A DNA stretch of 37,636 bases from a virus. The stretch spans positions 1-37,636 of IMG/VR virus record IMGVR_UViG_3300039149_000036. One strand, 5' to 3'. Below, piece after piece: positions 811 through 37,290 of the stretch. The notes under the pieces are model-generated. The model saw nothing but the letters and a program-made list of their open reading frames with translations. It was not told the DNA's origin and made no database searches. Within the stretch, counting starts at the first letter, position 1; each line of letters starts with the position of its first letter. The translations under genes were made by a program, and so were the position numbers.

Positions 811-1722
811 TCAAAACAGCCGAAGTTGCCGCCACTCGCTTAAACGGAACGTCGGCCGCGGCAGCCGATCGAGTTGGCCGTCGCCGATCACGCGTGGATC
901 GCAATAGTGCCGCTCGAACACTCCGCGGGTGTTGCCGAGGTGCCGGGAGCCGTCCCCGCCGTTGGCTTCGATCAACGAGCCGCTGGTCCGTCGGAGCTTG
1001 TGGAAGAGGCCACCGCGACCGCGGCCGTATCGAACGCCTGCCTGCCTCAGGATCCGCTTGAACGATCTGTACAAATACTGCTCGGTGAACGGCCACGGCC
1101 AGACGCGATCCCGCGACGGATCGTAGACCGAGGCGATCGCCGCCACCGACTGATCCGAGAGCCGGCAGAATTTCGGCCGGGCGTCTTTCTGGACCTCGGC
1201 CCGCAATACAAGGTACCGGTCGCTGAGCGATATGTCGGCCGGCCGGATCTGTAGGCTCGCCCCCACGCGGACCCCAGTCGTATACAACATCAGCAGAAGC
1301 GAAGGCCACCAGTACCTCCGCTCGACCCCGCAGCCATCGCAGATACAACCCCGTTGCATCCGGGCCACCGCCAGAATCCGCTCGATCTCGGCGACGGTCC
1401 ACGCCTCGGGAAGGGTGCGTCGCTCTTTGAGCTTGGGCACATGGCGGGGCAGCTCCGGCACCAGCCCATCCCCATGGGCCGCCCGCCAGAGGGTCAAGAG
1501 CATCCTGCGCTTGGAATTGACTGTAGCGGCAGAACGAGTCCGAAGCAGGTGGGCCAAAAACCGTTGGAGCAGGGTGTCCGAGAGACTGGACAATCGCGTC
1601 GGCTGTCCATGCCACGCATCCAGAAGCTGGACTACGACCGTGAGTTGCTCGATATAGCCACCCGAGATTCCCAGGTGCGCCGGAACATAGGTGGCGGTCA
1701 GATACTCCGCCAGGGTCCGCAT
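811..1722 (-). CDS. int: Tyrosine recombinase / phage integrase
   Basis: This 303-residue protein has the catalytic set of tyrosine recombinases: Arg152 in TTGVRVGASL, a probable Lys in EVQKDARPK near 179, the HKLRR box (His241, Arg244), His261 in SRHLGNT and the nucleophile Tyr273 in ERHYCDP. The N-terminal third looks like the usual SAM-like arm/core DNA-binding region. An unusual Cys-rich insert (CICDGCGVERRYWW, about 126-139) lies just before the Arg motif and may bind zinc. There is no clear Shine-Dalgarno site before the ATG. It should catalyse site-specific integration and excision. Two tRNA-derived sequences flank it, at 631-805 and 2479-2524, fitting a tRNA-targeting integrase. Confidence 0.92.
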   Translation of the reverse strand: MRTLAEYLTATYVPAHLGISGGYIEQLTVVVQLLDAWHGQPTRLSSLSDTLLQRFLAHLLRTRSAATVNSKRRMLLTLWRAAHGDGLVPELPRHVPKLKERRTLPEAWTVAEIERILAVARMQRGCICDGCGVERRYWWPSLLLMLYTTGVRVGASLQIRPADISLSDRYLVLRAEVQKDARPKFCRLSDQSVAAIASVYDPSRDRVWPWPFTEQYLYRSFKRILRQAGVRYGRGRGGLFHKLRRTSGSLIEANGGDGSRHLGNTRGVFERHYCDPRVIGDGQLDRLPRPTFRLSEWRQLRLF

Positions 1723-3033: not shown

Positions 3034-3061
3034 TTGACATAAGCGTAGCTTATGCTATAAT
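3034..3061 (+). promoter_or_regulatory. Rightward promoter with embedded operator
   Basis: Consensus TTGACA (3034-3039), a 16-base spacer and consensus TATAAT (3056-3061). The spacer holds a perfect palindrome ATAAGC-GTA-GCTTAT (3039-3053), an ideal site for the dimeric repressor to block RNA polymerase. The first gene's ATG is eight bases after the -10 box, so the mRNA would be leaderless or nearly so. This is the only strong rightward promoter I see ahead of the long plus-strand gene series. Confidence 0.85.
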
Positions 3062-3069
3062 ATTACGGC

Positions 3070-3741
3070 ATGAAGAGGCTGCAATGGAATGCGGGCGACC
3101 TGGTGTTCTTTTCCGGGCGATCGTTCGTCTCCCGGGTGATTCGACTGCGCACCTGTTCGCGATTCTCGCACGTGGGGATCGTGGCCCCGCTCGCGCACGA
3201 CGTGATAGCCCGACGGTTTCTACTCGGCCATCAGTATATCGCGCACCGGATTTTAGAGGACTGGGACGAGCGGCCGCTGCTATTCGAGTCGACCACCCTG
3301 GGCGTGCGGCCTTGCGAGATCGCCGGCCGCCGGATTGAGGGTCTCCAGGCCCACGACCCCGACCGGCTGATCGACGAATATGACGGTCGCGTCTACCGGA
3401 TGTCCCTGCGGCCCTGCTGGGCGCTGAGCGTCCAGGAAACGCTGGACCTGGCGTGGTACCTGATCTCCAACATTGGGCGCCGGTACGACACGGGCGGCGC
3501 GCTGCTGGCCGGTACCCGACTGCTGAAACACCTATTGACCTTCCGGGCCTCCGACCGCCGGACCGTGTTCTGCAACGAACTGGTCGGCGTGGCCCTCCAG
3601 GCGGCCTACCGTCACGAGATCAAGCGGGCCCGCAACCACCCGTTGCACCGCTCCCGATTCCATCCCGGCCGGATGCACCCGGGGTCGTTTGCGAGGTGGG
3701 CCCGAAAAAACCTGTACGAGCCCCTGGAGCGAATCAAGTGA
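3070..3741 (+). CDS. YiiX-like permuted papain-fold hydrolase
   Basis: This 223-residue protein has the circularly permuted NlpC/P60 (YaeF/YiiX, DUF830) pattern: GDLVFF at 9-14, the His in SRFSHVGIVAP (His34), an acidic residue in LLFESTT (Glu73), and the C-terminal nucleophile in TVFCNELVG (Cys168). No signal peptide is visible. Relatives cleave amide or thioester bonds in peptides, lipids or cell-wall material. It is the first gene after the repressed rightward promoter and starts eight bases from the -10 box, so it would be among the first products made after induction. A role in lysis or in modifying a host envelope component is inference. Confidence 0.75.
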   Translation: MKRLQWNAGDLVFFSGRSFVSRVIRLRTCSRFSHVGIVAPLAHDVIARRFLLGHQYIAHRILEDWDERPLLFESTTLGVRPCEIAGRRIEGLQAHDPDRLIDEYDGRVYRMSLRPCWALSVQETLDLAWYLISNIGRRYDTGGALLAGTRLLKHLLTFRASDRRTVFCNELVGVALQAAYRHEIKRARNHPLHRSRFHPGRMHPGSFARWARKNLYEPLERIK

Positions 3742-7665: not shown

Positions 7666-7923
7666 GTGCGTAGGTACCGCGGCGTCTCCTGGCACCGGGG
7701 CCACGGCAGGTGGCGGGCGAAACTGAAGACACACGGGAAGCACGTCCACCTGGGCGATTACTTGACGGCGGAGGATGCGGCGCGGGCCTGGGACTGCGGG
7801 GCGAATATGATCCGGGGCACCATGGCCCGGCTGAACTTCCCGGCAGATGCCGGACGGCCGCCCACGTGCGTAACGCAGGCAGCCATCTTACAGCGGTTGA
7901 TGGACGCGGGAGTGGTGGAGTAG
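7666..7923 (+). CDS. AP2/ERF-domain DNA-binding protein
   Basis: This 85-residue protein is essentially a single AP2 domain: YRGVSWHRGHGRWRAKL, then GKHVHLGDYLTAEDAARAWD and a helix carrying RLNFP. These are the YRG element, the three-strand sheet and the AARAYD-type helix of the family. Phage AP2 domains usually sit beside HNH nuclease domains in homing endonucleases; here no HNH motif is present in it or its neighbours. It could be a nuclease remnant or a stand-alone DNA-binding regulator. The start codon is GTG, one base after the upstream stop. Confidence 0.85.
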   Translation: MRRYRGVSWHRGHGRWRAKLKTHGKHVHLGDYLTAEDAARAWDCGANMIRGTMARLNFPADAGRPPTCVTQAAILQRLMDAGVVE

Positions 7924-9421: not shown

Positions 9422-10129
9422 ATGCACATCATCTACCGCCTATCCGAAGGAAATGGCCGCAAGCCGCGCCCGCCCTGGTTCAACAAGGAGGCGTGCCTGC
9501 GGAACTTCCTGCGGGTGTTTGGCGGAGTGAGGTGCCGCGCCACGGTGGCTCTGGATGGCGTGAAGCGGCCCTTTCAAGACATGGTAGTCACGGCCGCGAC
9601 GGAACTGCGGTGGCTACAAGATCGCCTTGATATCGTGGCCCTCGGCAACCGCGGCAACAGCGGCAGCTTCCTCTGGGCGCTGGACAAGGCCTGCAAGGAG
9701 GCGGCCGACGACGAGATCGTCTACCTAGTGGAAGACGACTACGTCCACCGGGCCGGGGCCCCTGAGGTCCTGGAAGACGGGATGAAGCTGGGCTTCGATT
9801 ACGTCACGGGGTACGACCATCCGGACAAGTATCTACCGGAAGGGACACCCACAACGCTGCTCTACCGCGGAGGGAAAGCCCATTGGCGGCTGACGCCCAG
9901 TACCACGATGACGTTTGCCGCCACAGGCCGAACGCTACGTGAGGACCGCGATTTCTGGGAGGAGAGTTGCGAGGGCCCCGTGCCCCGGGATCACGCGACG
10001 TTTCGCCGACTCGCGATCGGTGGCTACCGTACCGTCGGTTCCTCTATCCCCGCCTACTCCACGCACGCCGAGACGAAGTGGCTGGCCCCACTGGTCGACT
10101 GGGAAGCGGTGGTTCGAGAGACCATATGA
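9422..10129 (+). CDS. GT-A-type glycosyltransferase
   Basis: This 235-residue protein has a Rossmann-like N-terminus with a nucleotide-sugar-type start and a DxD-like metal site, YLVEDDYVH (residues 101-109), typical of GT-A glycosyltransferases. The region WFNKEACLRNFL resembles phage and viral GT2-like proteins annotated near surface-glycan genes. It lacks membrane segments and is probably cytoplasmic. It opens a run of nine coupled genes; its stop overlaps the next start by ATGA. Donor and acceptor cannot be inferred. Confidence 0.75.
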   Translation: MHIIYRLSEGNGRKPRPPWFNKEACLRNFLRVFGGVRCRATVALDGVKRPFQDMVVTAATELRWLQDRLDIVALGNRGNSGSFLWALDKACKEAADDEIVYLVEDDYVHRAGAPEVLEDGMKLGFDYVTGYDHPDKYLPEGTPTTLLYRGGKAHWRLTPSTTMTFAATGRTLREDRDFWEESCEGPVPRDHATFRRLAIGGYRTVGSSIPAYSTHAETKWLAPLVDWEAVVRETI

Positions 10130-10665
10130 TCTGCGACTTCGACGACTTTTACGATGGGAACACGGGGCTGGATTACCTGTTTCATCTCCACGCCATGCGC
10201 CCCGATTTCCGGTGTACGCTGTTTACCGTCCCCAACCGGATCACCAACGCGACGCTAGAGAGTCTGCCGAGCTGGATGGAAGTTGCGGTGCACGGCTTTG
10301 ACCACCCGACCCCCCGCGAATGCGAGGGCTGGGATCGGGATGCGATGGACAGACTGCTCGACCACGTCTCGACCCGCCCGAAGTTCGTCCGCGGATTCAA
10401 GGCGCCCGGCTGGCAGATTTCCAACGCCTGCTACGACGTACTCCTGGAGCGCGGCTACTGGGTGGCGGATCAGGATTACAATAACGGCCGCCGGCCCCCG
10501 GGTTTGCCCTGCTACTTGCTGGGCCCCGAGAGTTGGCATGGGCACATCCAGAACGTCTGCGGCAACGGCCTGCAAGAGACGTTCGACGAGTTGTCCAGGC
10601 GGGTGTCTGAGGCGGATCGATTCCAGTTCGTCAGTGAGGTGATAACCGGTGCGCAAACAACTTGA
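10126..10665 (+). CDS. Polysaccharide deacetylase-like (NodB/CE4) protein
   Basis: The 179-residue protein has CE4 family motifs: an Asp pair in ICDFDDFY (residues 2-8), the metal-binding HGFDHPTP (His56, His60), and a GFKAPGWQIS motif (90-99) like the family's later Arg/Trp region. It would remove N- or O-acetyl groups from a sugar. It overlaps both neighbours. No signal peptide, so it acts inside the cell, for example on a glycan precursor. Confidence 0.78.
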   Translation: MICDFDDFYDGNTGLDYLFHLHAMRPDFRCTLFTVPNRITNATLESLPSWMEVAVHGFDHPTPRECEGWDRDAMDRLLDHVSTRPKFVRGFKAPGWQISNACYDVLLERGYWVADQDYNNGRRPPGLPCYLLGPESWHGHIQNVCGNGLQETFDELSRRVSEADRFQFVSEVITGAQTT

Positions 10666-11386
10666 GATTACGACCGTGGTGCCGTGCCCGCTGCAATGCG
10701 AGTACTGCCCGCAGGGATTGCTGTACGCCTGGTACGAAGGTACGCCCGAGTTGACTCTGGACGACTTCAAGTACTTCGTCGGCAAGGTGCCGACCGACGT
10801 ACGAATCCACTTCTCGGGGATGGCCGAACCGTGGGCCAATCCCGCCTGTACCGAGATGGTCGAGTACGCGGTGCAGACGCACGAAGTGCAGGTCTACACG
10901 ACCACGGCCGGCATGTCGTTCGAGGATGCGGAGCGGATCGCCCGGTTGCCGTTCTCGTGTTTCGTCATTCACCTGCCGGACGATACCCCGACGTGCCGGG
11001 TTCCCTACCAGCCTGCGATTCTGGAGATATTGGCGCCGGTCATCACGGGACGCATGACCGTCGGGACCCCGCGCCGCGACGTCCCACGAGGCGGCGTGCA
11101 CCAGGCAGAACGCATCGTCCGCGCCGGCCTGCTGCAAACGCCATCCCGACAGGGACCGCTCCACTGCCGCTGGGGCCGTTGCGAACAGAACGTCCTGCTG
11201 CCAAACGGCGACGTGGTGCTCTGCTGTATGGACTACGGCATGGAACACTGGCTGGGCAACCTCCGCCGCGAGTCGTACGAATCCCTAGAGGTAATCCGGA
11301 AACAAGTCCTCGCGTGCCTGTCTACCGATTCCGAGCCCGTTATTTGCCGTCACTGCTGCTATGCCGAATGTGGTCCTCCCCAATAG
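10649..11386 (+). CDS. Radical SAM/SPASM-domain protein
   Basis: The GTG-started 245-residue protein has the radical SAM cluster motif CPLQCEYC (Cys13, Cys17, Cys20) near the N-terminus and a SPASM-like C-terminal Cys set (Cys173, 178, 192, 193, 233, 236, 237, 241) around CRWGRCEQNVLLPNGDVVLC. It should bind two or three iron-sulfur clusters and make a 5'-deoxyadenosyl radical. Relatives modify peptides or sugars. Here the neighbours are sugar enzymes, so a carbohydrate or a glycopeptide substrate is possible. It is shorter than many SPASM proteins (about 350), suggesting a compact barrel. Confidence 0.85.
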   Translation: MRKQLEITTVVPCPLQCEYCPQGLLYAWYEGTPELTLDDFKYFVGKVPTDVRIHFSGMAEPWANPACTEMVEYAVQTHEVQVYTTTAGMSFEDAERIARLPFSCFVIHLPDDTPTCRVPYQPAILEILAPVITGRMTVGTPRRDVPRGGVHQAERIVRAGLLQTPSRQGPLHCRWGRCEQNVLLPNGDVVLCCMDYGMEHWLGNLRRESYESLEVIRKQVLACLSTDSEPVICRHCCYAECGPPQ

Positions 11387-11981
11387 CCTGTTTATCCACG
11401 TGATGAAGACCGGCGGGTCGTGGGTTTGCGAGGCCCTGATCGGCAGTAAGCTGGGCCGCGATGCCGGGTTTCCGCACACGACGATCGCCGAGTTGCGGGA
11501 AACCGATTACTACCGCGACGGGCAGTTTCGGTTCTCGTTCGTGAGGCACCCGATCCCCTGGTACCAATCCTTTTACCGGTTTTCGGTCAGTCGGCCGCAG
11601 AACCAATGGCCGCCGCGGGGCTGGCAGTACCGCAAGCAGTACGAGCGCCTGGCCCACCCGCATCCGGGCGTGAGTTTCGAGGAGTTCTGTGAATACGTCC
11701 TGGAGTACCATCCCGGCTACTGCACTAAGAACTACTGGGTCTCGCTCGGCGCGCCGGAGACGGAGATTGAGTTTATTGGCCGTACAGAGAACCTCCGGGA
11801 AGACCTGTTGCGAGCCCTGGAATTGGCCGGCGAGACCGTCACCGACGAGCAACGCCGGTTCATCCGCGAATTCCCTCCGCACAACGTGAGCCCACGGGTG
11901 TCCGCCGAGTACACCTTACGCCACCTACGCGAGTTCCGCCGTCTGGAGGCACCGACCTTGGAACGATTCGGTTATGCGTAA
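11361..11981 (+). CDS. Sulfotransferase (first copy)
   Basis: This 206-residue protein begins LFIHVMKTGGSW: the 5'-phosphosulfate loop with Lys16, Thr17 and Gly18. The 3'-phosphate-binding part is FSFVRHPIPWYQSFY (Arg62, Ser70). These are hallmarks of Golgi-type/sulfotransferase family 2 enzymes that use PAPS. It would transfer a sulfate group to a hydroxyl or amine, most likely of a glycan given the neighbours. It overlaps the radical SAM gene by 26 bases and the next GT by eight. Confidence 0.85.
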   Translation: MPNVVLPNSLFIHVMKTGGSWVCEALIGSKLGRDAGFPHTTIAELRETDYYRDGQFRFSFVRHPIPWYQSFYRFSVSRPQNQWPPRGWQYRKQYERLAHPHPGVSFEEFCEYVLEYHPGYCTKNYWVSLGAPETEIEFIGRTENLREDLLRALELAGETVTDEQRRFIREFPPHNVSPRVSAEYTLRHLREFRRLEAPTLERFGYA

Positions 11982-12675
11982 CGAAAAGGTCTGCATCGTC
12001 ACCCGGGCGCTGAACCGCCTGGAGTACACCGCCCAGTGCGTGGCGACGGTGCGGAACCACACGCGGTATCCCGAGTACGATCACCTGGTTCTCAATCAGG
12101 CCTCGACCGACGGCACTCGCGAGTGGCTGGACTGGATCGCGAAGATGCCGAACCAGTGGTATTCGCGGGTCCGTCCGATCCACCTGAAGAAGAATTGCGG
12201 CGATTGGGGCGGGATGCGTGCGGCGATCGACTTCCTGGGTGACGCCCAGTACGTCGTGCAACTGGACAACGATATCCGCGTGCCGCGCGGCTGGCTCACT
12301 GTGATGGTCGCCGTCTTGCAGGCCATGGGCGCCTCGGCTGTCATGCTCCGCCGCACCGGCGTGCAGAACCGCATTCACGGAGAGGCCGCCGAACCGCTGG
12401 TCTTCAACGAAGGTCAGGCGGAGACAGATTCCCACCAACTGCTGTCCATTAGTGTCGTTCCCAAAGTCGTCGCGTGCTACGTGTGCCGCACGGCCGATTT
12501 CCTCCGTTACGCCCACCGGATTCCCATGTGCGACCAACTAGTCCAGGCGATCGGCCGACCGGCCGCGAAGATCGAGAACCTGCCTTGCCACCAGATGGAA
12601 GGTTTCGATTCGCTCGACAAATCGTACATCCAGCACGACAAGTACGGGGAAAGCGAACCCCGCCAGGTGATATGA
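11974..12675 (+). CDS. GT2-family glycosyltransferase
   Basis: The 233-residue protein opens KVCIVTRALNRLEYTAQCV and has a GT2 nucleotide-binding pattern, an NQASTDGTREWLDW element and a DxD site in YVVQLDNDIRVPRGWL. Cytoplasmic; single GT-A domain with a short C-terminal extension that includes a CDQLVQAIGRP segment. It starts within the sulfotransferase end (TTATGCGTAA). Acceptor and donor unknown. Confidence 0.82.
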   Translation: MRNEKVCIVTRALNRLEYTAQCVATVRNHTRYPEYDHLVLNQASTDGTREWLDWIAKMPNQWYSRVRPIHLKKNCGDWGGMRAAIDFLGDAQYVVQLDNDIRVPRGWLTVMVAVLQAMGASAVMLRRTGVQNRIHGEAAEPLVFNEGQAETDSHQLLSISVVPKVVACYVCRTADFLRYAHRIPMCDQLVQAIGRPAAKIENLPCHQMEGFDSLDKSYIQHDKYGESEPRQVI

Positions 12676-13277
12676 GCGACGTCCTGCCGATCAGCGTGAT
12701 CGTGACCCTCTTGCCCTCGCGGGACGAGTTCTTCGTAGAGCATTGCCTGCCGTCGATCGTCGCCAATAACCCGGCCGAGATTATCGTCGAGCGGGCTCCC
12801 GGCGGGATGTGCGAGCGACGCAACCGCGGGGCAGCGAAGGCGACCCAGCCCTTCCTGCTCTTCTGCGACGACGACGACGTTCTGTATCCCGAGACCCTGC
12901 GTAAACTACTGGACGCGCTGACCGGTGACGGTGATGCCGCTCTGGCCTACGGACACTATCGTGTCGTCCCGCACGGCGATCACTGGCACCCCGCTGTGGA
13001 TGTCGTGAAGGCCGCTCCCTGGAACGTACCCGCCTTACGCTCGCGTAATTACGTGAACAGTTGCAGCCTGTTGCGGGCATCCACGTTTCCAGGTTGGGAC
13101 GAGAAGCTCCTGAGTTACGTCGACTGGGATATGGCCCTGACCCTGGCGGGTCGCGGTCACCACGGGGTGTTTATCGACGAGATCCTCTTCGAGGCCCACT
13201 ACATCGACAAGTGCAATAGCGCCCACCCTTACGGCCCGGCGAGTCGAAGGTATATCCTCCAGAAGCACGGTCTCTGA
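12672..13277 (+). CDS. GT2-family glycosyltransferase
   Basis: Starts by ATGA overlap and encodes a compact GT-A domain of 201 residues: PISVIVTLLPSRDEFFVEHC, the sugar-binding ERRNRGAAKATQ element, a Asp-rich DxD site in LLFCDDDDVLYPETL, and a later SYVDWDMALTLAGRG region that is the usual ED/WDxxL catalytic area. It should add one sugar from a nucleotide donor. Nearest relative in the window is the GT at 14883-15566. Confidence 0.83.
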   Translation: MSDVLPISVIVTLLPSRDEFFVEHCLPSIVANNPAEIIVERAPGGMCERRNRGAAKATQPFLLFCDDDDVLYPETLRKLLDALTGDGDAALAYGHYRVVPHGDHWHPAVDVVKAAPWNVPALRSRNYVNSCSLLRASTFPGWDEKLLSYVDWDMALTLAGRGHHGVFIDEILFEAHYIDKCNSAHPYGPASRRYILQKHGL

Positions 13278-13285
13278 GGTCTTGA

Positions 13286-13906
13286 TTGGCTATCGTTCTG
13301 CCCAAGTCGATCTTCCTGCATATCCCCAAGACCGGTGGCGAATGGGTCCGGAAGGTTTTATGGGACAACCACCTGGAGGCCGTCCCACTCGATCCCGGCC
13401 GCCAGAAACACGCCCCACTCCAGTGGTTCGAGGAACGCGGCAATTTCAATCGCGTCTGCCGGTTTGCGTTTGTCCGCGATCCGTTGGCTTGGTACTGGTC
13501 GTTTTTCCGCTACCAGACGGCCCGGGACTGGCGCGAGATCCCCGAGGTGGCGTTAAGCGACTGCCGAGCCCCCGATTTTGGGCGCTTCCTGAATAACGTG
13601 TTTAGCCGCCGTAAACCCAATTGGCTGTCCCGCTTATATGAAAACTACATCGGCCACCCTTCGTGGGCGATCGAGTTCGTCGGACGGACCGAGCGGCTGG
13701 CCGACCATCTCGGATACATCCTCACGCGGATTGGGGAGCGGTATGATCCGGACACACTACGCAGCCCGCCCCTGAACGCCGCGCCGCCAGTCCCTCTGCC
13801 CGCCGAGCACCGTAACGCAGTCCGTGCATTTGAACCACGGTTCTACGAGCGATTCTGTTCCCGTACCATGCCCCAACGAGTCGTACCATGCCCAAACGAG
13901 TCCTGA
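13286..13906 (+). CDS. Sulfotransferase (second copy)
   Basis: A TTG start five bases after a GAGGT site is the best start. The 206-residue protein has the PAPS-binding loop SIFLHIPKTGGEW (Lys15) and the 3' motif FAFVRDPLAWYWSFFRY (Arg64, Ser72). It aligns by eye with the first sulfotransferase over its length, so the two are likely paralogues with different acceptor positions. The last codons arose by a small tandem duplication of the next gene's start region. Confidence 0.82.
   Translation: MAIVLPKSIFLHIPKTGGEWVRKVLWDNHLEAVPLDPGRQKHAPLQWFEERGNFNRVCRFAFVRDPLAWYWSFFRYQTARDWREIPEVALSDCRAPDFGRFLNNVFSRRKPNWLSRLYENYIGHPSWAIEFVGRTERLADHLGYILTRIGERYDPDTLRSPPLNAAPPVPLPAEHRNAVRAFEPRFYERFCSRTMPQRVVPCPNES
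13862..13901 (+). repeat. 20-bp tandem duplication across the next gene's start
   Basis: CGTACCATGCCCCAACGAGT is followed at once by the same 20 bases with one change (C to A). The second copy holds the ATG of the dehydratase gene. The first copy also has an ATG, but in another frame. The duplication supplies the end of the sulfotransferase (TMPQRVVPCPNES). Confidence 0.85.
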
Positions 13907-14883
13907 TTACCGGTGGCTGCGGATTCATCGGCCACCACGTCGTCGAGCACATCCTGAAGAACACCGACTGGGAGGTCGTGGTCTGGGACAAGCTCTCCTA
14001 TGCGTCCGGCGGATTCGACCGCCTGCGGGACATCGACGCCTTCGATGACCGGCGGGTCACGATCCTGGGCGTCGACTTCTCGCAACCCATCGAGCCGGGA
14101 ATCGTCTCGGAGACGGGGCCGCTGAACTACATCCTGCACCTGGGGGCCGAGACGCACGTGGACCGGTCGATCCGGGACGCCGCGCCCTTCGTGACCGCCA
14201 ACGTGATGGGCACCCTGCGAGTCCTGGAGTACGCCAGGGACCACCAGCCGGACCTGGAGAAGTTCGTCTACTTCTCGACCGACGAGGTGTTCGGCCCGGC
14301 GCCGGAGGATATCGAGTACGACGAGTGGGACTGCTACCGCAGCTCGAACCCGTACGCGGCCAGCAAGGCCGGCGGGGAGGAAATGGCGATCGCCTTTGAG
14401 AACACCCACGGGGTCCCGGTGATCGTGACGCACACCATGAACGCCTTTGGCGAGCGCCAGCATCCCGAGAAGTTCATCCCGATGGTGATCCGCCAGGTCC
14501 GCGACGGCGAGAAGGTGACGATCCACGCCAACGCCGATCGCACGGAGGCCGGATCTCGGTTCTATATCCACGCCCGCAACGTGGCCGACGCCCTGTTGTT
14601 CCTGCTCGATCTGGGCGAGGTTGGCGACAAGTACAATATCGTGGGCGAGCAGGAGGTGGACAACCTGGATCTAGCCCTGACGATCGCCCTGAGCGTGGGT
14701 AATCCGCTGAAATATGAGATGGTCGACTTCCATTCGAGCCGGCCCGGTCACGACCTCCGCTACGCCCTGGACGGGACCAAGATGTCTGAACTGGGCTGGG
14801 AACCGCCCAAGACCCTCCAGGCGTCCCTGGCAAAGACGGTTCGCTGGATGCTGGACCATCCCCGCTGGCTGGAGGTCGCCTGA
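13888..14883 (+). CDS. dTDP-glucose 4,6-dehydratase-like sugar-nucleotide enzyme
   Basis: This 331-residue extended short-chain dehydrogenase has the NAD loop GGCGFIG (residues 9-15), the catalytic triad region FSTDEVFG (Thr131, Asp132, Glu133) and YAASK (Tyr156, Lys160). The TDE order and the GAETHVDRSI element fit RmlB-type 4,6-dehydratases. It would make a 4-keto-6-deoxy sugar nucleotide as donor for the neighbouring glycosyltransferases. No RmlA, RmlC or RmlD is seen in the window, so either the host supplies them or this enzyme makes a different nucleotide sugar. Confidence 0.88.
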   Translation: MPKRVLITGGCGFIGHHVVEHILKNTDWEVVVWDKLSYASGGFDRLRDIDAFDDRRVTILGVDFSQPIEPGIVSETGPLNYILHLGAETHVDRSIRDAAPFVTANVMGTLRVLEYARDHQPDLEKFVYFSTDEVFGPAPEDIEYDEWDCYRSSNPYAASKAGGEEMAIAFENTHGVPVIVTHTMNAFGERQHPEKFIPMVIRQVRDGEKVTIHANADRTEAGSRFYIHARNVADALLFLLDLGEVGDKYNIVGEQEVDNLDLALTIALSVGNPLKYEMVDFHSSRPGHDLRYALDGTKMSELGWEPPKTLQASLAKTVRWMLDHPRWLEVA

Positions 14884-15566
14884 TGTTACATCTCGTGATG
14901 CCCACCTGCGGCGAGCCCTGCCTGGAACGCTGCCTGGAAACCCTGTACCGGCACACCGATCCGGGGCTGGATTGTCAGTTGTGGCTGGTAATGAACCACG
15001 ACGATCCGCAGCGGCTGGCGAACGTCGCCGGCATGGTGGCCCACCGCGACCTGGTGTACCTGAGTATCCCGCAGAAAATCGGCTACACGCAGGCCTGCAA
15101 CTACGGCTGGCAACTTGCCAACCCGGCCGACAACGATTACTTCGCGATCCTGAACGACGATCTCGTGTTCGACGGCGAGTGGACCGGACCGCTGTTGGCC
15201 GCCCTGGACGCCGGGGCGACCCTGGCCGGCCCGGCGATCCACCACGTGGGCCGGGACGGTTACTGGGGCAGGGGCGACGAGCAGTACCAGTTCATCGAGG
15301 GTTGGTGTTTTATGGCGCGGGCCGCACACCTGACCGGCGCCGCGGCGGCCTTCGGTCAATCGCCGTTCTACGAACTATTCGACTCCAAGTTCGGCATGGG
15401 CTACTGCGAGGACGTCGACCTCTCGATTCGCCTCCAGCGGCTTGGCGGAAAGCTCCGGCAGGTCGACGTTCCCATCCGTCATCTGCACAGCCAGACCTAC
15501 GGCCACGAGCGACCAAGCTGGGCCGCCAACCGCCAGTACCTGATGAGCAAATGGGACTTGGGATGA
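14883..15566 (+). CDS. GT2-family glycosyltransferase
   Basis: The start overlaps the upstream stop (TGATG). The 227-residue protein has a GT2 layout: LHLVMPTCGEPCLERCLETL, a QKIGYTQACNYGWQLA nucleotide/sugar contact element, FAILNDDLVFDG as DxD, and GMGYCEDVDLSIRLQRLGG, which is the acidic ED motif used as catalytic base in this family. It is the last gene of the sugar cassette. Confidence 0.85.
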   Translation: MLHLVMPTCGEPCLERCLETLYRHTDPGLDCQLWLVMNHDDPQRLANVAGMVAHRDLVYLSIPQKIGYTQACNYGWQLANPADNDYFAILNDDLVFDGEWTGPLLAALDAGATLAGPAIHHVGRDGYWGRGDEQYQFIEGWCFMARAAHLTGAAAAFGQSPFYELFDSKFGMGYCEDVDLSIRLQRLGGKLRQVDVPIRHLHSQTYGHERPSWAANRQYLMSKWDLG

Positions 15567-16275: not shown

Positions 16276-17352
16276 ATGTCTACCGATCCGCAAGAACCCG
16301 CCGAACCCGTGGCACCGGATCTGGGCGTAGAAGACGCCCTGATGGCCACGGCAGCCGATCCGCCGCCCGCGGACCCGCCCGTCGATCCACCCGCCGATCC
16401 ACCGCCCACAGACCCCAAGCCACCGGAACCCGGCGATCCACCGCCGGCCCCGGCACCCGAACCTTCGCCGGAACCTACACCTGCACCGGCACCGGCACCG
16501 CCGAACATCCGGCAGTTGGTCCAGAGCGAGTGGGGCGTCGATATGTCGCCCTACCAGAGCGACTACGAGGCCATCCGGGCGATGGTCGAGGCCAAAAAGC
16601 TCGTGGGGGTCCGCAACGACGATGCCGTGCTGGGCCGGGCCATCCGGGACAGCGGGCGCGAGGGCGACGTGCGGGCGATCCTCTCGGGGCAGCAACCGCA
16701 ACCACCGCAACCGCCGGCACCGGAGCCGGAAGCCCCGGTGAGTATCCAGGAGTTGCGTTATCTGGCAACCCAGGTCACCCGGGACGAATCGGGACGGCTG
16801 GTCCCCGTTCCCGGCGCGGCACCCGACGCAGCCAACCGCTTTCAACAGGCGGAAGAGCGCTATCAGGCACAGATCGACCGCGTGGTCACCCGGCCCGAAG
16901 AGGTCGTCGCCCCGGTGATCCAGAAGCAGCTCGCCGAGTTCCAGTCGCAGATCCAACGGCAATGGGATCTCCAGCAGCAGCAGGCGAGGCAGGCGCAGGA
17001 GATCGCCGGCTGGGCCCAGCAGAACGCCTCCTGGCTATTCAACGGGGGTAACCCGCAGCAGGACGTGTCGCCTCAGGGACGGCAGTGCTGCCAATTGTTC
17101 GACCGGGCCGTGTCTTCGGGCATGCCCCCGAACGCCGCACTGGAGTACGCCACCGCAGTGGTGCGGAGCCAACAGCCTCAGCAGCCTCCACCCCCGCAAC
17201 CGAAACCGCAGGCGACCCGTCAACCGGCCGTGGGCACCCCGCCGGCCGAGACGGAAGAGCAATTGGAGAAGCGCCTGCAGGACATGGATATCGTCGAGGC
17301 CCTGATCGCCCGTGCCGAGCACGATGCGGCGATCGCGGGAACGGCGGGATAA
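16276..17352 (+). CDS. Capsid scaffold-like protein
   Basis: This 358-residue protein has a disordered Pro/Asp-rich N-terminus (DPPPADPPVDPPADPPPTDP), a folded middle (NIRQLVQSEWGVDMSPYQS), a long Gln-rich helix (about residues 190-245; QAEERYQAQIDR and FQSQIQRQWDLQQQQARQAQ) and a Pro/Gln-rich tail. Helical, highly charged proteins placed directly before the major capsid gene are usually scaffolding proteins that guide shell assembly. The call rests on position and composition rather than a motif. Confidence 0.6.
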   Translation: MSTDPQEPAEPVAPDLGVEDALMATAADPPPADPPVDPPADPPPTDPKPPEPGDPPPAPAPEPSPEPTPAPAPAPPNIRQLVQSEWGVDMSPYQSDYEAIRAMVEAKKLVGVRNDDAVLGRAIRDSGREGDVRAILSGQQPQPPQPPAPEPEAPVSIQELRYLATQVTRDESGRLVPVPGAAPDAANRFQQAEERYQAQIDRVVTRPEEVVAPVIQKQLAEFQSQIQRQWDLQQQQARQAQEIAGWAQQNASWLFNGGNPQQDVSPQGRQCCQLFDRAVSSGMPPNAALEYATAVVRSQQPQQPPPPQPKPQATRQPAVGTPPAETEEQLEKRLQDMDIVEALIARAEHDAAIAGTAG

Positions 17353-17619: not shown

Positions 17620-18696
17620 ATGGCTCAGATTGAAAATTGGGCACGGCCTGACATTTCTACTCTGCAAGCGCAGATCAAGAAACTCACCGAGCCCTGCATT
17701 CGCGATCACGTTCTCCTCGCGATGATGAGGAAACGTGGCCGGATCAGCTACGGCCACTCTGGCAAGAACCCGAAGTGGCGCGTCAAGTGGCGGCGGTTCG
17801 AGCCGCTTCCCAACGACGACATGGACACGATCAACGCACCGCGGCGCAATCGGTACAAAGAGGCCGAGCTGCCGTGGCGATCGTATCGTATGGCCGAATC
17901 GTACTCCAAGTACGAGACGCTGGTCAACCAGGGCAAATGGGCCCTGATCAAAATCGTATCCCAACTCGCCAAGGACATGGCGGCCGACGCGAACGAATAC
18001 TTCGCGATGGAACTCTATCGAAACGGCGACGCCTCGGGATACACCGACAGAATCCACGGCCTGGAGTCCGTGTTCACCGAGGCCGACGCGGCGATCTCCG
18101 CGAGTAACACGCCCTGTCTCGCCCCGTCCGGAACTTCCTACGGCGGGCTCAACAGCGTGTTGGGCACCTACGGCGGGTCCTGGACGACCTACTGGCCGCT
18201 GGGCACCGGGCCCATGCGGTATCACTTCTGGTCGCCGATGATCATCGATCATTCGGCCACGTTCTGGCCGGACGACAGCGATGAGTGGAAGTACACGTGG
18301 CAGAAGTGCCTCCGGTTCGCGGAAATGTACCAGATGAAGCTCCACAAGAAGCGTGTGGACCTCTGGTTAATGGACCCCGAACTGGAGCGCCAAGCCAAGG
18401 ACTCCATGCTCGACAAGGAACGGGTGCTCGTCAATTCCAACGATGAACTGAAGTCCCTGGGCTTCGGCAAGGCGTGGAACTGGGAAGGCACCCCGATCAT
18501 GTCCGAGTACGGCTGCACGGCCGATTCCGCCTACGGGATCAACTGGAGCGCCCTGGAGTTGAAGAGCATGCAAAAGCAGCTCTTCGCCACCAGCAACGCG
18601 CCCGAGTGGGACGTGCAGGCCAAAAAGCTCGACATCGATTTCTGGGGTAACCTGTTCATCAGTACCCCGGCCCATCTCTGCAAGATCACCTCGTAA
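17620..18696 (+). CDS. Major capsid protein (HK97-fold, inferred)
   Basis: The 358-residue protein has the size, position (after scaffold, before a decoration-like gene) and sequence style of a major capsid protein. Features are an N-terminal helical arm (PDISTLQAQIKKLTEPCIRD), a spine-helix region (ALIKIVSQLAKDMAADANEY), the LYRNGD and GLESVF elements that are frequent in phage capsid proteins of this group, and an A-domain-like C-terminus. Separate leader structures suggest its expression is controlled individually. No N-terminal protease site is obvious. Confidence rests on family likeness and context. Confidence 0.82.
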   Translation: MAQIENWARPDISTLQAQIKKLTEPCIRDHVLLAMMRKRGRISYGHSGKNPKWRVKWRRFEPLPNDDMDTINAPRRNRYKEAELPWRSYRMAESYSKYETLVNQGKWALIKIVSQLAKDMAADANEYFAMELYRNGDASGYTDRIHGLESVFTEADAAISASNTPCLAPSGTSYGGLNSVLGTYGGSWTTYWPLGTGPMRYHFWSPMIIDHSATFWPDDSDEWKYTWQKCLRFAEMYQMKLHKKRVDLWLMDPELERQAKDSMLDKERVLVNSNDELKSLGFGKAWNWEGTPIMSEYGCTADSAYGINWSALELKSMQKQLFATSNAPEWDVQAKKLDIDFWGNLFISTPAHLCKITS

Positions 18697-19336: not shown

Positions 19337-19440
19337 ATATGCCCGCCAGGCGGACCTCGCCGGTACCCCGACATCCCATCGGGGACCGCCGCGGCCGGCT
19401 TGGCGGGCCTCTCACCAACCCCCTCGCCCCAGAGACCGCC

Positions 19441-20244
19441 ATGTACAAGATCACCATCGCCCGTCCCACCGGTTACAAGTTGGAATGCCCCGAGATCGGG
19501 ACGTTCCTAATGGACTTCACGGCACGCGTCCGGGACTTCCCGGACGTCGGCCTGATCGACACCTTCAACGTCCAGAACCCGCGGATCGCGATGTGCCGCA
19601 ACGCCTGCGTCGCGCACGCGCGGGACGTCGGGTCCACGCACATCCTCTGGCTCGATCCCGACATGGTGATCGACCGCTACGTGCAGCGGACGGCCGACGG
19701 CCGCAGTGTCCCGGGCCGGGCCAAACCGTTCTTCCCCGTCGCCTGGGACTTCATCAAGCGGCACGCCCAGGCCTACGGGCCCTGCGTGGTCGCCGCACCT
19801 TACGCGAGTTGCTACCCGCACCGCGCCATCCACGTGTTCGCCGCCAGTACGACCGGGAACAGCCTAGCCCGGATCACCCACGCCGAAGCGGCCAAGCTCA
19901 GCGGCTGGACCCAGGTCCGAGCGGTCGGGACCGGGTGCATGCTGATGGACGTAAAGGTCTTCGACCGCCTACAGGAGCCCTACTTCGACGACCTGTTTAA
20001 GACGGTGGCCCACGCCGACCTGCACCACAGCCAGGACGTGCGGTTCTGCCTGAAGTGCGCGGGCGCCAAGGTACCGATCTACGTCAACTGGGATTGCCCG
20101 GCCGGCCACTACCAGAACACGATCGTCGAAATGCCGGGTTGGGATTCGGGGAAACCGCCCGAGTCGATCATCCCTACGGCCGCCGATCCCTCGGTCCCGC
20201 TGCTGGTCATCCAGGGCGAGGGCGATACCTCTTGGAATAAATAG
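19441..20244 (+). CDS. GT-A-type glycosyltransferase within the head module
   Basis: The ATG at 19441 begins a 267-residue protein MYKITIARPTGYKLECPEIG with an ILWLDPDMVID metal site (DPD at 72-74), an NPRIAMCRNACVAHA element (PRIAxxRN) and a VRAVGTGCMLMDVKVFDRL region, the usual pattern of phage and viral GT-A-like proteins of this kind. An upstream ATG at 19339 would read through the structured region and is less likely. It sits between the capsid/decoration genes and the terminase, apart from the main sugar cassette, which suggests it acts on a virion protein. Confidence 0.72.
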   Translation: MYKITIARPTGYKLECPEIGTFLMDFTARVRDFPDVGLIDTFNVQNPRIAMCRNACVAHARDVGSTHILWLDPDMVIDRYVQRTADGRSVPGRAKPFFPVAWDFIKRHAQAYGPCVVAAPYASCYPHRAIHVFAASTTGNSLARITHAEAAKLSGWTQVRAVGTGCMLMDVKVFDRLQEPYFDDLFKTVAHADLHHSQDVRFCLKCAGAKVPIYVNWDCPAGHYQNTIVEMPGWDSGKPPESIIPTAADPSVPLLVIQGEGDTSWNK

Positions 20245-27888: not shown

Positions 27889-28665
27889 ATGGCGGGCGAA
27901 ATCAATCTGAAACATACGGCGACCGGAGCGACCATTAAGGCGCTTATCCTCGATGCGAACCGCACGCAACGGTGGAACGGCTCCGCAATGGTGGCCATCT
28001 CGTCGGTGGCGGACGCCGATTGGGCAACGGGGCTCGTGGCCTGCACCGAACAGCAGACGTCGGATGCCACGGATACGGCAGTCTACGTTGGCAACTGGCC
28101 GGCGATTACGACGGCCGGCGATTACACGATCCTGTTTTTCAGCGGTGCGTCGCCGGCGCCGGGAGACCGAGCGGTGGGAGTCCAGGATTATCCGGTCGGT
28201 ATCGGGGCTGCCCTTACTCAGCAAAACATCCGCGATGCGATGAAGCTGGCGCGCACGGCGGGGACGCCGCCGGCCGGGTCGGTCGATAAAGACCTGGAAG
28301 ACATCGTCACCAAGACCGATCAACTTGCGTTTACGGACGGCGACGTGAAGGCCACGCTGGACGGGGAGACGGTAACCCTCGACTCCGATTACGACGCGGC
28401 GAAGACGGCGGCGGCAGCCGGAGCAGCCATGTCCCTGACTGCCGCCGAACGGAACAGTATTGCCGACGCGTTCCTAAACCGAGGGACGAGCAATATCGAG
28501 GATACGGCCGACAAACACTCGGTCGGCGCAATGGTTATGATTGCTACCAACTCGTCTATTTCGGGCACCACGTTGACCGCCAAAAAACCGTCGGATGACT
28601 CGACGTTCCAAACTTATACCATCACCGTCTCCGCCGATGCCGATCCGATTACGGGAGTCTCCTGA
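27889..28665 (+). CDS. Structural protein of the tail or fibre region
   Basis: The 258-residue protein begins MAGEINLKHTATGATIKALI and has an N-terminal beta sandwich-like domain, QDYPVGIGAALTQQNIRDAM, a helical middle with Ala-rich runs, and a Thr-rich C-terminal strand region (TLTAKKPSDDSTFQTYTITV). Such proteins are common among virion appendage genes. No exact family. Confidence 0.6.
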   Translation: MAGEINLKHTATGATIKALILDANRTQRWNGSAMVAISSVADADWATGLVACTEQQTSDATDTAVYVGNWPAITTAGDYTILFFSGASPAPGDRAVGVQDYPVGIGAALTQQNIRDAMKLARTAGTPPAGSVDKDLEDIVTKTDQLAFTDGDVKATLDGETVTLDSDYDAAKTAAAAGAAMSLTAAERNSIADAFLNRGTSNIEDTADKHSVGAMVMIATNSSISGTTLTAKKPSDDSTFQTYTITVSADADPITGVS

Positions 28666-33984: not shown

Positions 33985-36189
33985 ATGCTTTCCCGTCAAG
34001 CCTCACGGATCGTCGAAGCGTTTCGCTCGGTGGATTTCCCTGCCGAAGCGGCACAGGAGATTGCCAGCGCGCTCTGCGATGTGGACCAGGAGATCGAGCA
34101 CCACGGGCCGGTCACCATCCGCCGGGACCTCCCGCGAGAGGATCGACAGTTCAGCCCGCGGACCGGGGATGAGAACCTGCACCCGGTCCCGCCCATGCGG
34201 GCACCGCGGATCACCGGGGCCTGCCTGACCCTTTCCAATCCGCCGATTGGCGATAGCGATCGGCGGGGCGAGAACGGCTTTACGCTCGACCTGCCCAACG
34301 GCGTGATGCGCAACCGGGGCGAGACCTGGGTACGGAAATGGGCGAAACTCACGGCCCACACCACGGTGATGGACGCCGAGAGTACCCGGATCAATACGTC
34401 CAGCGCCTACGTGAACGCCTACTACTACGCGGGCGACGGCGTCGAGTGCGGGGATAGCAAGGGGCGGGATGAGTCCGACACCCAGATCCGGATCTTCTAC
34501 GCCAACGAGGACAATCGTCCGCCCGTCGGCTCGGTCGTCAGCTATCTGCGGGATCAGGATGGTCTAGCCTGGGGCGATATCAGCGGGGGCGCGGCGGCCA
34601 GCCCGCTCCGCTGGGCCAAGGCCACGACGGGCTGGGAGTGGCACGACGAGCAGGCCCATCTCGGCTACGTCGTCGCGCAGGAGGCCGAGGACCATCACGG
34701 CAATAACCTTTCGTCGACCACCACGCGGATCTACCTGGCCGGCTCTCCCAAGGCCGACCCGAACGTCCAGAAGAACTGGGTGATCGGCTGGCGGTACGAC
34801 ATCCACGGCGAGCCGGCCGCCGTCTGTGATCACCTGGACGCCCCGATCGGCCGGGTGGCGATGCAGGACAACCTGACGGTGCCCGGTGGCTGGGCGGCCT
34901 ACACGACGATGGCGAGCTACTCGCCCGTCGGCTACGATTCCGGGAATTCCGATTACGACGCGATCGGCAAACAGGTCGGCAATCACCCGATCCGCCCGAC
35001 CGAGCATAGCAGCGATGAGCCTTCGAGCGGGACGTCCACCTGGGGCGCCGCCGGATGGTACGATACCGGTTGGTGCCTGGACGATCACGCCGAGACCGAC
35101 ACCTTCACGTCGCAGACGGGCATTACCGTCCTGGTCACCTCCCCGCCCACCAGCGAGTCCCAGGCGGGCATCACGGTGCAGACGACTTCGCCTCCGACGA
35201 GCGCCTCGCAGACGGGCATTACGGTGCAGGTCACCTCCCCGCCGACCAGCGCCTCGCAGGCGGGCATTACGGTCAATGCACCGAGCCCCAGCGAGTCGAG
35301 TCTGACCCTTGACTCGCTTCAAGTCGTGGCCGCGGGCGGCGACACGGGGACGGCCGCGCTGACGATCGGCTCTCAAGCACTGGCGACCAACTCGGCCGTT
35401 GCCCCGATCTCCGTCACCGGCAACCTGGACGTCGCGGCGTTTACGGTGGCGGCCGACACCAGCAAGATCGTGATCGGCATCGGCACGCACGTCCCGCATA
35501 CGCATGCGGCACTTGAAACCACCTGGACGTTCGATGCTCTGGGGGGGCACGAACTCAATCCTGATAATGGCCTGGATATCGAAACCGAGCCACCGTCCGG
35601 CACCTCCGACACCCACACGCACATCCTGGATGGGACAAGTACGCAATGCTGGTATTCCTACGAGGGCAACGATCATACGACCACCGAGTCGCACACGCTC
35701 ACCCACGTCATCGCCCAGAATGCACACGATCATAATATCGCGGTCGGAACCCAGGCGATCAGCACGGCGAACCTGATCGTCACCGACGCGGGGCATACGC
35801 ACCATGTCGGCGGTCACGCCCACACCGTCTCGCCCGACCCGCATTCGCACTCGCTCGGGGCCCACACCCATTCGCTGACCGGGCTGACCTACCAAGTCGA
35901 TCTCCAGCACAGCCATTCAGCTACCGCCCAAGCCCATACGCACACGGTTGCCCACAGCCACTCGACGCTCGACGAGGCCCATACGCACACGGTTACCCAT
36001 AGCCACTCGGTTACCGACCAGGCGCATACGCACACCGTTACGCACAGCCACTCGACCGACGATCCCAGCCACGCGCACACGACGCCGGTGCTGACACACA
36101 CCGGCACGCTCTATCACCGCGAAGAGGACTTCCGGCCCCCGCTGAACACGATCCTGTTCATCCGGCGCGTCGGACCCGCTGACGACTAG
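33985..36189 (+). CDS. Long fibre-like protein with Ser/Thr/Pro and His repeats
   Basis: The 734-residue protein starts right after the nozzle stop. It has an N-terminal helix domain, a beta-rich middle (TRINTSSAYVNAYYYAGDGV), four 16-residue repeats with core SQTGITV (35110-35301), and a C-terminal region with three 15-residue units like AHTHTVTHSHSVTDQ (35932-36066). HxH repeats in phage fibres such as the T4 long fibre tip coordinate iron and stabilise trimeric shafts. Probable host-recognition or adhesion fibre; receptor unknown. Confidence 0.75.
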   Translation: MLSRQASRIVEAFRSVDFPAEAAQEIASALCDVDQEIEHHGPVTIRRDLPREDRQFSPRTGDENLHPVPPMRAPRITGACLTLSNPPIGDSDRRGENGFTLDLPNGVMRNRGETWVRKWAKLTAHTTVMDAESTRINTSSAYVNAYYYAGDGVECGDSKGRDESDTQIRIFYANEDNRPPVGSVVSYLRDQDGLAWGDISGGAAASPLRWAKATTGWEWHDEQAHLGYVVAQEAEDHHGNNLSSTTTRIYLAGSPKADPNVQKNWVIGWRYDIHGEPAAVCDHLDAPIGRVAMQDNLTVPGGWAAYTTMASYSPVGYDSGNSDYDAIGKQVGNHPIRPTEHSSDEPSSGTSTWGAAGWYDTGWCLDDHAETDTFTSQTGITVLVTSPPTSESQAGITVQTTSPPTSASQTGITVQVTSPPTSASQAGITVNAPSPSESSLTLDSLQVVAAGGDTGTAALTIGSQALATNSAVAPISVTGNLDVAAFTVAADTSKIVIGIGTHVPHTHAALETTWTFDALGGHELNPDNGLDIETEPPSGTSDTHTHILDGTSTQCWYSYEGNDHTTTESHTLTHVIAQNAHDHNIAVGTQAISTANLIVTDAGHTHHVGGHAHTVSPDPHSHSLGAHTHSLTGLTYQVDLQHSHSATAQAHTHTVAHSHSTLDEAHTHTVTHSHSVTDQAHTHTVTHSHSTDDPSHAHTTPVLTHTGTLYHREEDFRPPLNTILFIRRVGPADD
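35110..35301 (+). repeat. Four 48-bp units encoding SQxGITV repeats
   Basis: The period is 16 codons; units differ at a few positions. They encode a Ser/Thr/Pro-rich segment, a possible glycosylation or linker region of the fibre. Confidence 0.85.
35932..36066 (+). repeat. Three 45-bp units encoding His-rich repeats
   Basis: Each unit encodes AHTHTV-HSHS- with 15 residues. His-x-His patterns suggest metal-binding stacks in a trimeric fibre. Confidence 0.88.
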
Positions 36190-36198
36190 GAGCCCCCG

Positions 36199-37290
36199 AT
36201 GGCCTATCAATACGCCGACTACAATCCCAACTGGAATCCGTGGAGTTCCGGGCAACAATGGTTGACCGGCACGCGGCCGGTGGGACCTCAGCAGCAAGCG
36301 GCCCAGACCTACGCCGACGCCTCGATGTACGGGGCGGATCAAGGTTTACGGGGTTCGCTGGCCCAGACCCAGGGCTCGATGTGGAACACGGACCGTTCGG
36401 CCCGGGCCAATGAATACGGCTCGAACCTCGGCGCGCTGGCCTCGATGTACGGGTCCAACTTGGGCGCCACGGCCAACATGTACGGCAGCGACCGCGGGTT
36501 GCAGGGGATCCTGGCCTCCTTGCCGTGGAACTACGCGGGTCAGCAGTTGGCGGCCGACGCCAGCCGGGACGCATCGCGGTGGGGCGCCTATGGGAGCATC
36601 TTCGGCGGCTATTACCCGGCCCAGGCGAACATGTACGGGGCGAATCAGGCAGCCGGCGCCAGTATGTTCGGGTCGGGCATGGGCGCCCTGGCCAGTATGT
36701 ACGGCTCGAATCAGGCGGCCGACGCCAGCCGGTACGGGTCCGGGATGGGCGCGATGTCGAATATGTACGGGGCGGACCGGGCGGCCGACGCGAGCATGTA
36801 CGGCTCGGGCGTGGGCGCCCTTTCCAATATGTACGGGGCAGACACCGCAGCCCGGGCTAACATGTATGGGTCCGGGATGGGCGCGATGGCCAGCATGTAC
36901 GGCTCCGATGCGGCCGAACGGACCGGCTTGGGCACCGCCCAGATCGGAGCCGATGCCTCCCGCGACGTCGAGCGGATGCGGACAGGACTCGGCTACTACA
37001 ACGCCGACGTCGGACTCCAGGGTCTGCTGGCCCAGATCACGGGGCAGAAGGATATTGCCGGCATGGAGGGCCAGACGGCCCGCGACGTCGCCCAGTACGG
37101 TTTGCAGGGCACGATCGCCTCAGCGGCGATCCCCGCCCAGTCGGCGCTGCAATTGGCGCAAATGGAGCAAAGTTTCAAGGCGGCGACGCTGGCGAAAATG
37201 CTGGGGCTGGTGGCTCCCCTCCTCTCATCCGCCCCGCCAGCGATGCCGTCGATCGGGACCAACTACGGTGCCGGGGTCTCGGCGAGGTAG
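36199..37290 (+). CDS. Hendecad-repeat virion protein (possible ejection protein)
   Basis: The 363-residue protein has a Gln/Trp/Tyr-rich start (NPNWNPWSSGQQW) and a long central region of 11-residue repeats of form ASMYGSGMGAL (e.g. ASMYGSNQAAD, SNMYGADTAAR), about residues 35-235. This gives a right-handed coiled coil or helical rod rich in Gly, Ala and Met. A helical C-terminal domain follows. Placed at the end of the tail genes, it may be an internal ejection/pilot protein that makes a trans-envelope channel, or a short tape-measure-like rod. Unclear. Confidence 0.6.
   Translation: MAYQYADYNPNWNPWSSGQQWLTGTRPVGPQQQAAQTYADASMYGADQGLRGSLAQTQGSMWNTDRSARANEYGSNLGALASMYGSNLGATANMYGSDRGLQGILASLPWNYAGQQLAADASRDASRWGAYGSIFGGYYPAQANMYGANQAAGASMFGSGMGALASMYGSNQAADASRYGSGMGAMSNMYGADRAADASMYGSGVGALSNMYGADTAARANMYGSGMGAMASMYGSDAAERTGLGTAQIGADASRDVERMRTGLGYYNADVGLQGLLAQITGQKDIAGMEGQTARDVAQYGLQGTIASAAIPAQSALQLAQMEQSFKAATLAKMLGLVAPLLSSAPPAMPSIGTNYGAGVSAR

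Follow-up and report, generated by a model that had tools for sequence, protein, structure and literature searches.

What use would a phage have for nine enzymes of sugar chemistry encoded immediately ahead of its capsid genes? The question was raised by positions 9422-15566 of one linear IMG/VR virus record (IMGVR_UViG_3300039149_000036), which was analyzed over its whole length of 37,636 bases and is called the window here. Nine open reading frames (ORFs), all on the plus strand and separated by gaps of -26 to +8 nt, encode four predicted glycosyltransferases (GT_A to GT_D), a CE4-fold deacetylase (DAC), a radical S-adenosylmethionine (SAM)/SPASM protein (rSAM), two paralogous 3'-phosphoadenosine 5'-phosphosulfate (PAPS) sulfotransferases (ST1 and ST2), and a dTDP-glucose-4,6-dehydratase-like enzyme (RmlB-like). 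A first-pass annotation had described these as nine coupled genes with almost no gaps, placed in an operon with capsid genes, and both the spacing and the gene order bore this out. The answer that we favor over a change of the host surface or a modification of DNA is that the enzymes may decorate virion proteins in the cytosol, a reading to which we give roughly even chances.

The layout of the window sets the terms of the question. Integrase-like and HTH_3 repressor genes lie on the minus strand, and because of these genes the phage, which is uncultured, is probably temperate. The plus-strand array starts at 3070 and runs through NlpC-like, peptidase, and trypsin-like genes before it reaches the cassette; after the cassette come a putative scaffold gene and those for the major capsid protein, terminase (phrog_2), portal/adaptor, fibre, and other virion proteins. 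The nine cassette genes have a G+C content of 0.61-0.64 and a third-position G+C of 0.72-0.89, matching the structural genes, so that composition does not mark the cassette as a recent foreign patch.

Table 1. Features of the cassette and of the rest of the window, with the basis for each assignment
Feature	Position	Strand	Basis
GT_A, putative glycosyltransferase, GT-A-like, 235 aa	9422..10129	+	VEDDY motif; homology
DAC, CE4-fold polysaccharide deacetylase-like, 179 aa	10126..10665	+	AlphaFold model, conserved metal site
rSAM, radical SAM/SPASM protein, 245 aa, GTG start	10649..11386	+	Profiles and cysteines
ST1, PAPS sulfotransferase (Sulfotransfer_2), 206 aa	11361..11981	+	Pfam 9e-6, above cut-off; predicted model
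GT_B, GT2 glycosyltransferase, 233 aa	11974..12675	+	PF00535 1e-14
GT_C, GT2 glycosyltransferase, 201 aa	12672..13277	+	PF00535 3e-10
ST2, second PAPS sulfotransferase, TTG start	13286..13906	+	Sulfotransfer_2 3e-4; ST1 paralogue
RmlB-like nucleotide-sugar 4,6-dehydratase, 331 aa	13888..14883	+	Epimerase 5e-45; phrog_540 9e-90; PDB 1g1a 5e-59
GT_D, GT2 glycosyltransferase, 227 aa	14883..15566	+	PF00535 1e-10
Sigma-70 consensus promoter (12/12), predicted function	3034..3061	+	TTGACA-16-TATAAT
Putative scaffold protein adjoining cassette, predicted function	16276..17352	+	Position and homology among relatives
Major capsid protein	17620..18696	+	phrog_9953 4e-12
Glycosyltransferase-like gene between capsid and terminase genes (weak call)	19339..20244	+	phrog_34859 E 0.067; LDPDM motif
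Virion-region protein, Pro/Ser/Thr-rich and His-rich repeats	33985..36189	+	Pro/Ser/Thr repeat SPPTSxSQxGITV at ca. aa 385-443

Sulfation was predicted from ST1 and ST2, which are paralogues (30% identity, E 9e-18). Across 10 phage homologues, the ST1 columns F11, H13, K16, G18, G19, F58, R62, P64, and S70 were invariant, and these columns make up the 5'-phosphosulfate-binding (5'-PSB, xPKTGG) and 3'-phosphate-binding (3'-PB, RxPxxxxxS) motifs, confirming that the sulfotransferase motifs are visible directly in the sequence. ST1 reads MKTGG for PKTGG; ST2 has both PKTGG and RxPxxxxxS, and its Sulfotransfer_2 score of 21.4 bits was 0.6 bit under the cut-off of 22. The predicted model of ST1 had a predicted local distance difference test score (pLDDT) of 84, and the 50 top listed matches were sulfotransferases, 50 of 50, in both the Foldseek and the VIA searches. 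The best matches were heparan sulfate 2-O-sulfotransferases (Z 11.9 and 11.6), with cytosolic sulfotransferases (SULTs) at about 10. ST1 is thus closest in fold to the heparan sulfate 2-O-sulfotransferase but shares only ca. 10-15% identity with it, as a small bacterial-virus protein. The fold suggests a glycan substrate for ST1, short of proof because the Z gap to the cytosolic SULTs is small. Used alone as a query, ST1 found no viral relative, and only the combined alignment of ST1 and ST2 found homologues; a tblastn search with ST1, ST2, and DAC against cultured phages gave no match.

DAC had no Pfam or other family match. Its AlphaFold model (pLDDT 74, weak at residues 126-147) had only CE4 proteins among its top 11 Foldseek matches, with Z 11.6 to both 7fbw and 2cc0, and residues D7, H56, H60, and H140, corresponding to the metal-binding Asp-His-His and the motif histidine, were invariant. 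Activity is not implied by the fold, as one of the listed matches is a CE4 pseudoenzyme. The fold is also like that of the deacetylase domain of the heparan sulfate N-deacetylase/N-sulfotransferase NDST1 (Z 8.2, at ca. 10-15% identity). That the deacetylase and sulfotransferase pair makes a heparan-like N- or O-sulfated sugar is, in our estimate, very unlikely.

The rSAM protein matched SPASM above the cut-off (7e-5) and Radical_SAM below it (6.5e-5). It is ca. 25-30 residues shorter than its relatives and keeps all of the cluster cysteines, namely the CxxxCxxC motif (C13/C17/C20) and C173/C192/C193/C233/C236, which are conserved. The RmlB-like protein has readable GGCGFIG (NAD-binding), STDEVFG (TDE), and YAASK (YxxxK) motifs and is closest to dTDP-glucose 4,6-dehydratases (TIGR01181, 5e-79). 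It scored under the NCBI equivalog cut-off (265.6 against 365.1 bits), and a nucleotide and sugar specificity for dTDP-glucose is for that reason putative.

Membership of the GT2 family by the PF00535 domain was found for GT_B, GT_C, and GT_D; GT_A had no Pfam match, and a search of the PDB with it returned nothing. GT_A aligned over its length with phage genes that lie in glycosyltransferase clusters (E 2e-28), and because its assignment draws on these homologues and on conservation in a relative, the enzyme call is indirect. The family calls of the first-pass annotation stood in so far as Pfam and profile matches support them and structure prediction upheld the sulfotransferase fold of ST1 and the CE4 fold of DAC. 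Corrections concern the short rSAM, the score of the RmlB-like protein, and a further, weakly called glycosyltransferase-like gene outside the range first described.

The main new finding came from the arrangement of these genes in related phages. Twenty-four related viral loci were found by way of the terminase; a scan of viral contigs with the capsid protein found no relative. In one of them (G001, IMGVR_UViG_3300037247_001239), whose terminase is 47% identical to that of the window, homologues of GT_A (44-47% identity), GT_B (53-57%), GT_C (51%), and GT_D (39%) occur in the same order, just upstream of the scaffold and capsid genes. GT_A and GT_B of the window are separated by DAC-rSAM-ST1, and GT_C and GT_D by ST2 and the RmlB-like gene. 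In G001, GT_A, GT_B, and GT_C follow one another directly, with a glycosyltransferase-rSAM fusion, a LicD/cytidylyltransferase, and an rSAM/SPASM gene ahead of GT_D. The two phages therefore share the four-transferase frame and its place, but G001 has no sulfotransferase, deacetylase, or RmlB-like gene. The same slot holds several GT2 genes, FkbM methyltransferases, an epimerase, and a weak Sulfotransfer_1/3 match in G014; methyltransferases and an rSAM gene, with glycosyltransferase matches below the cut-off only, in G016; and one GT2 gene in L015. In G015, glycosyltransferase and rSAM genes are downstream of large fibre-like genes and not ahead of the capsid gene. From these comparisons we infer that the slot keeps a transferase frame while the finishing enzymes are exchanged. 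Because the relatives keep the frame yet differ in the finishing enzymes, the phage more probably coats its own particle than its host with a sulfated sugar. A broader reading, which we hold only tentatively, is that this group of phages carries a sulfated glycan whose core is built by the conserved glycosyltransferases, while interchangeable deacetylase, sulfotransferases, rSAM, LicD, and methyltransferases lend every phage a surface chemistry of its own.

Virions may carry a sulfated glycan or the host surface may be altered, as the first-pass annotation suggested, and the physical properties of the proteins bear on the choice. The maximum mean hydropathy over 19 residues was 0.37-1.83 for the nine proteins, with no clear membrane segment, so that all nine look soluble; no flippase, polymerase, ligase, lipid-carrier transferase, or membrane-anchored transferase was recognised among the nine genes. 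With soluble proteins and no recognised flippase, polymerase, or lipid-carrier transferase, the simplest explanation is that glycosylation proceeds stepwise in the cytosol. The locus would then serve glycan synthesis in the lytic phase, from a slot of the late operon whose contents can be swapped. The four soluble glycosyltransferases would assemble a short chain straight on an acceptor in the cytosol, which would most likely be a capsid or fibre protein not yet built into the virion. The RmlB-like enzyme would provide a 4-keto-6-deoxy sugar nucleotide, the CE4 deacetylase would take off an acyl group, ST1 and ST2 would transfer sulfate from host PAPS to two positions, and rSAM would carry out one more redox step on sugar or peptide. 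The particle would end up with a negatively charged sulfated glycan specific to the phage. As acceptors, the capsid protein and the Pro/Ser/Thr-repeat protein encoded at 33985-36189 may be named as a matter of speculation.

An alteration of the host surface polysaccharide (capsule, lipopolysaccharide, or a teichoic-type polymer) during infection or lysogeny, which would serve superinfection exclusion or keep progeny off debris, is an alternative that we consider somewhat unlikely. The probable temperate lifestyle, with its integrase and HTH_3 repressor, speaks for it, and serotype-converting morons are common among temperate phages. GT_B matches phrog_841, a 'GtrB-like' family, at 4e-8, and DAC is distantly like WbmS from O-antigen synthesis (3hft). 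However, the lack of a recognised flippase, polymerase, ligase, or membrane-anchored transferase among the nine genes and the apparent solubility of the products count against it, as does the position of the cassette in a plus-strand array with capsid genes and not in a lysogeny module. GtrABC modules resemble the cassette as phage-borne sugar modification, and GT_B is weakly GtrB-like, but serotype conversion of that type was rejected for the window, given the hydropathy values above and a cassette with neither a flippase nor a membrane-anchored GtrB.

The start of the array also bears on when the cassette would be expressed. A perfect 17-bp palindrome, CATAAGCGTAGCTTATG, occupies positions 3038-3054 within the spacer of the consensus promoter. 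It resembles a repressor operator, and the promoter is a candidate for an operator-controlled start of the plus-strand array including the cassette. Repression in lysogens, as the palindrome would suggest, argues further against a change of the host surface. Lying in one array with capsid genes and behind this promoter, the cassette appears to be set for expression during particle production, as would suit decoration of virion proteins.

Homologues in unrelated phages were found in similar company. One sulfotransferase homologue (L045) belongs to a sugar cassette with a GDP-mannose dehydratase, an FkbM methyltransferase, and a GT8 gene that adjoins a capsid-like gene, the product of which had no Pfam match; others (L042 and L043) stand beside structural genes. 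DAC homologues at ca. 50% identity were found in glycosyltransferase clusters directly after portal and protease-capsid genes by Pfam calls (L054), in a similar arrangement (L055), and ahead of connector-like genes (L057). In the cyanophage S-SRM01 (NC_070963), gp345-gp349 include a sulfotransferase, a GT_A homologue (gp346), a GT2-methyltransferase fusion, and a nucleotide-sugar epimerase and follow baseplate and tail-fibre genes. S-SRM01 thus offers a comparable set in a cultured isolate, but its sulfotransferase is of the Sulfotransfer_3/1 type, the set lies beside tail and not head genes, and the phage belongs to the Kyanoviridae. The first-pass annotation had proposed a search of other phages for this set near capsid genes, and the outcome was positive: the slot of G001 holds all four glycosyltransferases, and homologues of the sulfotransferases or the deacetylase occur in sugar cassettes at head or tail genes of unrelated phages. 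The independent placement of sugar sets beside head or tail genes favors a virion-linked role.

It could be supposed instead that the cassette is a mixed 'moron' island, in which some enzymes glycosylate virions, and unrelated host metabolites or peptides are the substrates of rSAM, the dehydratase, or the deacetylase. The coming and going of finishing enzymes among the relatives would fit, as would an rSAM/SPASM homologue (L090:14840-15580, 36% identity) that stands alone beside head genes in the Methanomicrobiales virus vir524. Those of its neighbouring proteins that were tested had no glycosyltransferase domain, and this homologue could act on a virion peptide. The cassette genes overlap, however, and glycosyltransferase, sulfotransferase, and dehydratase genes were repeatedly found together in unrelated phages, which points to one pathway and leaves the mixed island improbable.

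Hypermodification of phage DNA bases is more improbable still. Virus-encoded glycosyltransferases that act on DNA are known (Pyle 2024, cited in PMC12619734), and PMC10829341 mentions sulfotransferases in such systems. Against this, the cassette sits with capsid genes and not with replication genes. Neither a Tet_JBP (PF12851) nor a thymidylate-synthase-type (PF00303) enzyme was found in the window and seven relatives, where the contigs are fragments and the Tet_JBP control was weak; with the base-hydroxylation enzymes not found there, DNA modification was rejected as the principal explanation.

Several points weigh against the decoration of virion proteins. Virion glycans are not visible in sequence, and the acceptors named are candidates; cytosolic transferases could act on host molecules too, and the neighbourhood of the capsid genes may be just a tolerated insertion site. 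The calls of GT_A and the shorter rSAM are weak, and no clear cassette was seen in the distant relatives G017 and G018. PF03567 had no match in the terminase relatives searched, an absence that is uninformative because the control match was also absent.

Glycosylated virions have precedents. Phage-encoded glycosyltransferases glycosylate capsid and tail proteins of the mycobacteriophages Che8, Corndog, and Myrna (Freeman 2023, via PMC12363180 and PMC12619734). In those phages, according to these accounts, the virion glycan was measured, whereas for the window it is predicted from genes alone; the descriptions given there speak of glycosyltransferases and mention no sulfotransferase, deacetylase, or swappable capsid-side slot. 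Sulfotransferases of phages were already known as annotations (phrog_3347; S-SRM01; PMC10580990; PMC10829341), and in OM43 phages their role was called unclear (PMC10580990). The open papers searched, with most subscription literature outside their scope, contained no report of a sulfated phage or virion glycan. The earlier statement that phage-encoded sulfated glycans are hardly described holds, as far as those papers go, for the glycan on the virion; it does not hold for the enzymes, annotated before, or for virion glycosylation, which is established. A description of the modular slot was not found in the open literature searched. A compact set at the capsid genes, in which the transferase frame is conserved and the finishing enzymes are swapped, leads to a concrete hypothesis, that of sulfated virion coats under diversifying selection, and the cultured S-SRM01 with its comparable set makes the sulfated coat testable. 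If true, there would be phage particles with chemically diverse, phage-encoded, charged glycan coats, and such coats could determine how particles adsorb, how well they persist, and whether they escape defences that recognise surfaces.

Other features of the window were recorded as well. A small AP2-domain gene (7666-7923) lies upstream of the cassette; similar AP2-like genes directly adjoin GT_A in G001 (L019:3765-4211, minus strand) and the scaffold gene in L030 (L030:1205-1594), and look-alike small genes that had no Pfam match adjoin the scaffold gene in L025 and L026. The AP2-domain gene is possibly a mobility factor for the slot. The minus-strand HTH_3 gene (2007-2303) has an 11/12 promoter-like match at 2323-2295. 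The integrase gene (811-1722, minus strand) adjoins a stretch at 631-658 that resembles the 3' end of a tRNA (T-arm and acceptor stem) and is a candidate phage attachment site (attP); in the window, ARAGORN found no tRNA and Rfam no match. A terminase-profile scan of genome contigs for host assignment found no relative.

The glycosyltransferase-like gene at 19339-20244 is kept in L015, L017, L022, and L029. It had no PF00535 or other profile match, a profile comparison with GT_B and GT_C gave no support, and a lectin at E 0.01 was its sole match in the PDB. In the protein encoded at 33985-36189, TSPPTSxSQxGITV recurs in three to four near-identical copies ahead of a long His-Thr/Ser-rich repeat (HTHTVxHSHS), and the protein encoded at 36199-37290 has degenerate Met-Tyr-Gly-Ser repeats (xxANMYGSxxGA...). 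In the product of 27889-28665, the C-terminal segment (aa 191-257) shares 75% identity with a portion of a protein from the distant relative L038, and because this far exceeds the identity of the L038 terminase (35%), the segment is read as a recently exchanged fibre-like module.

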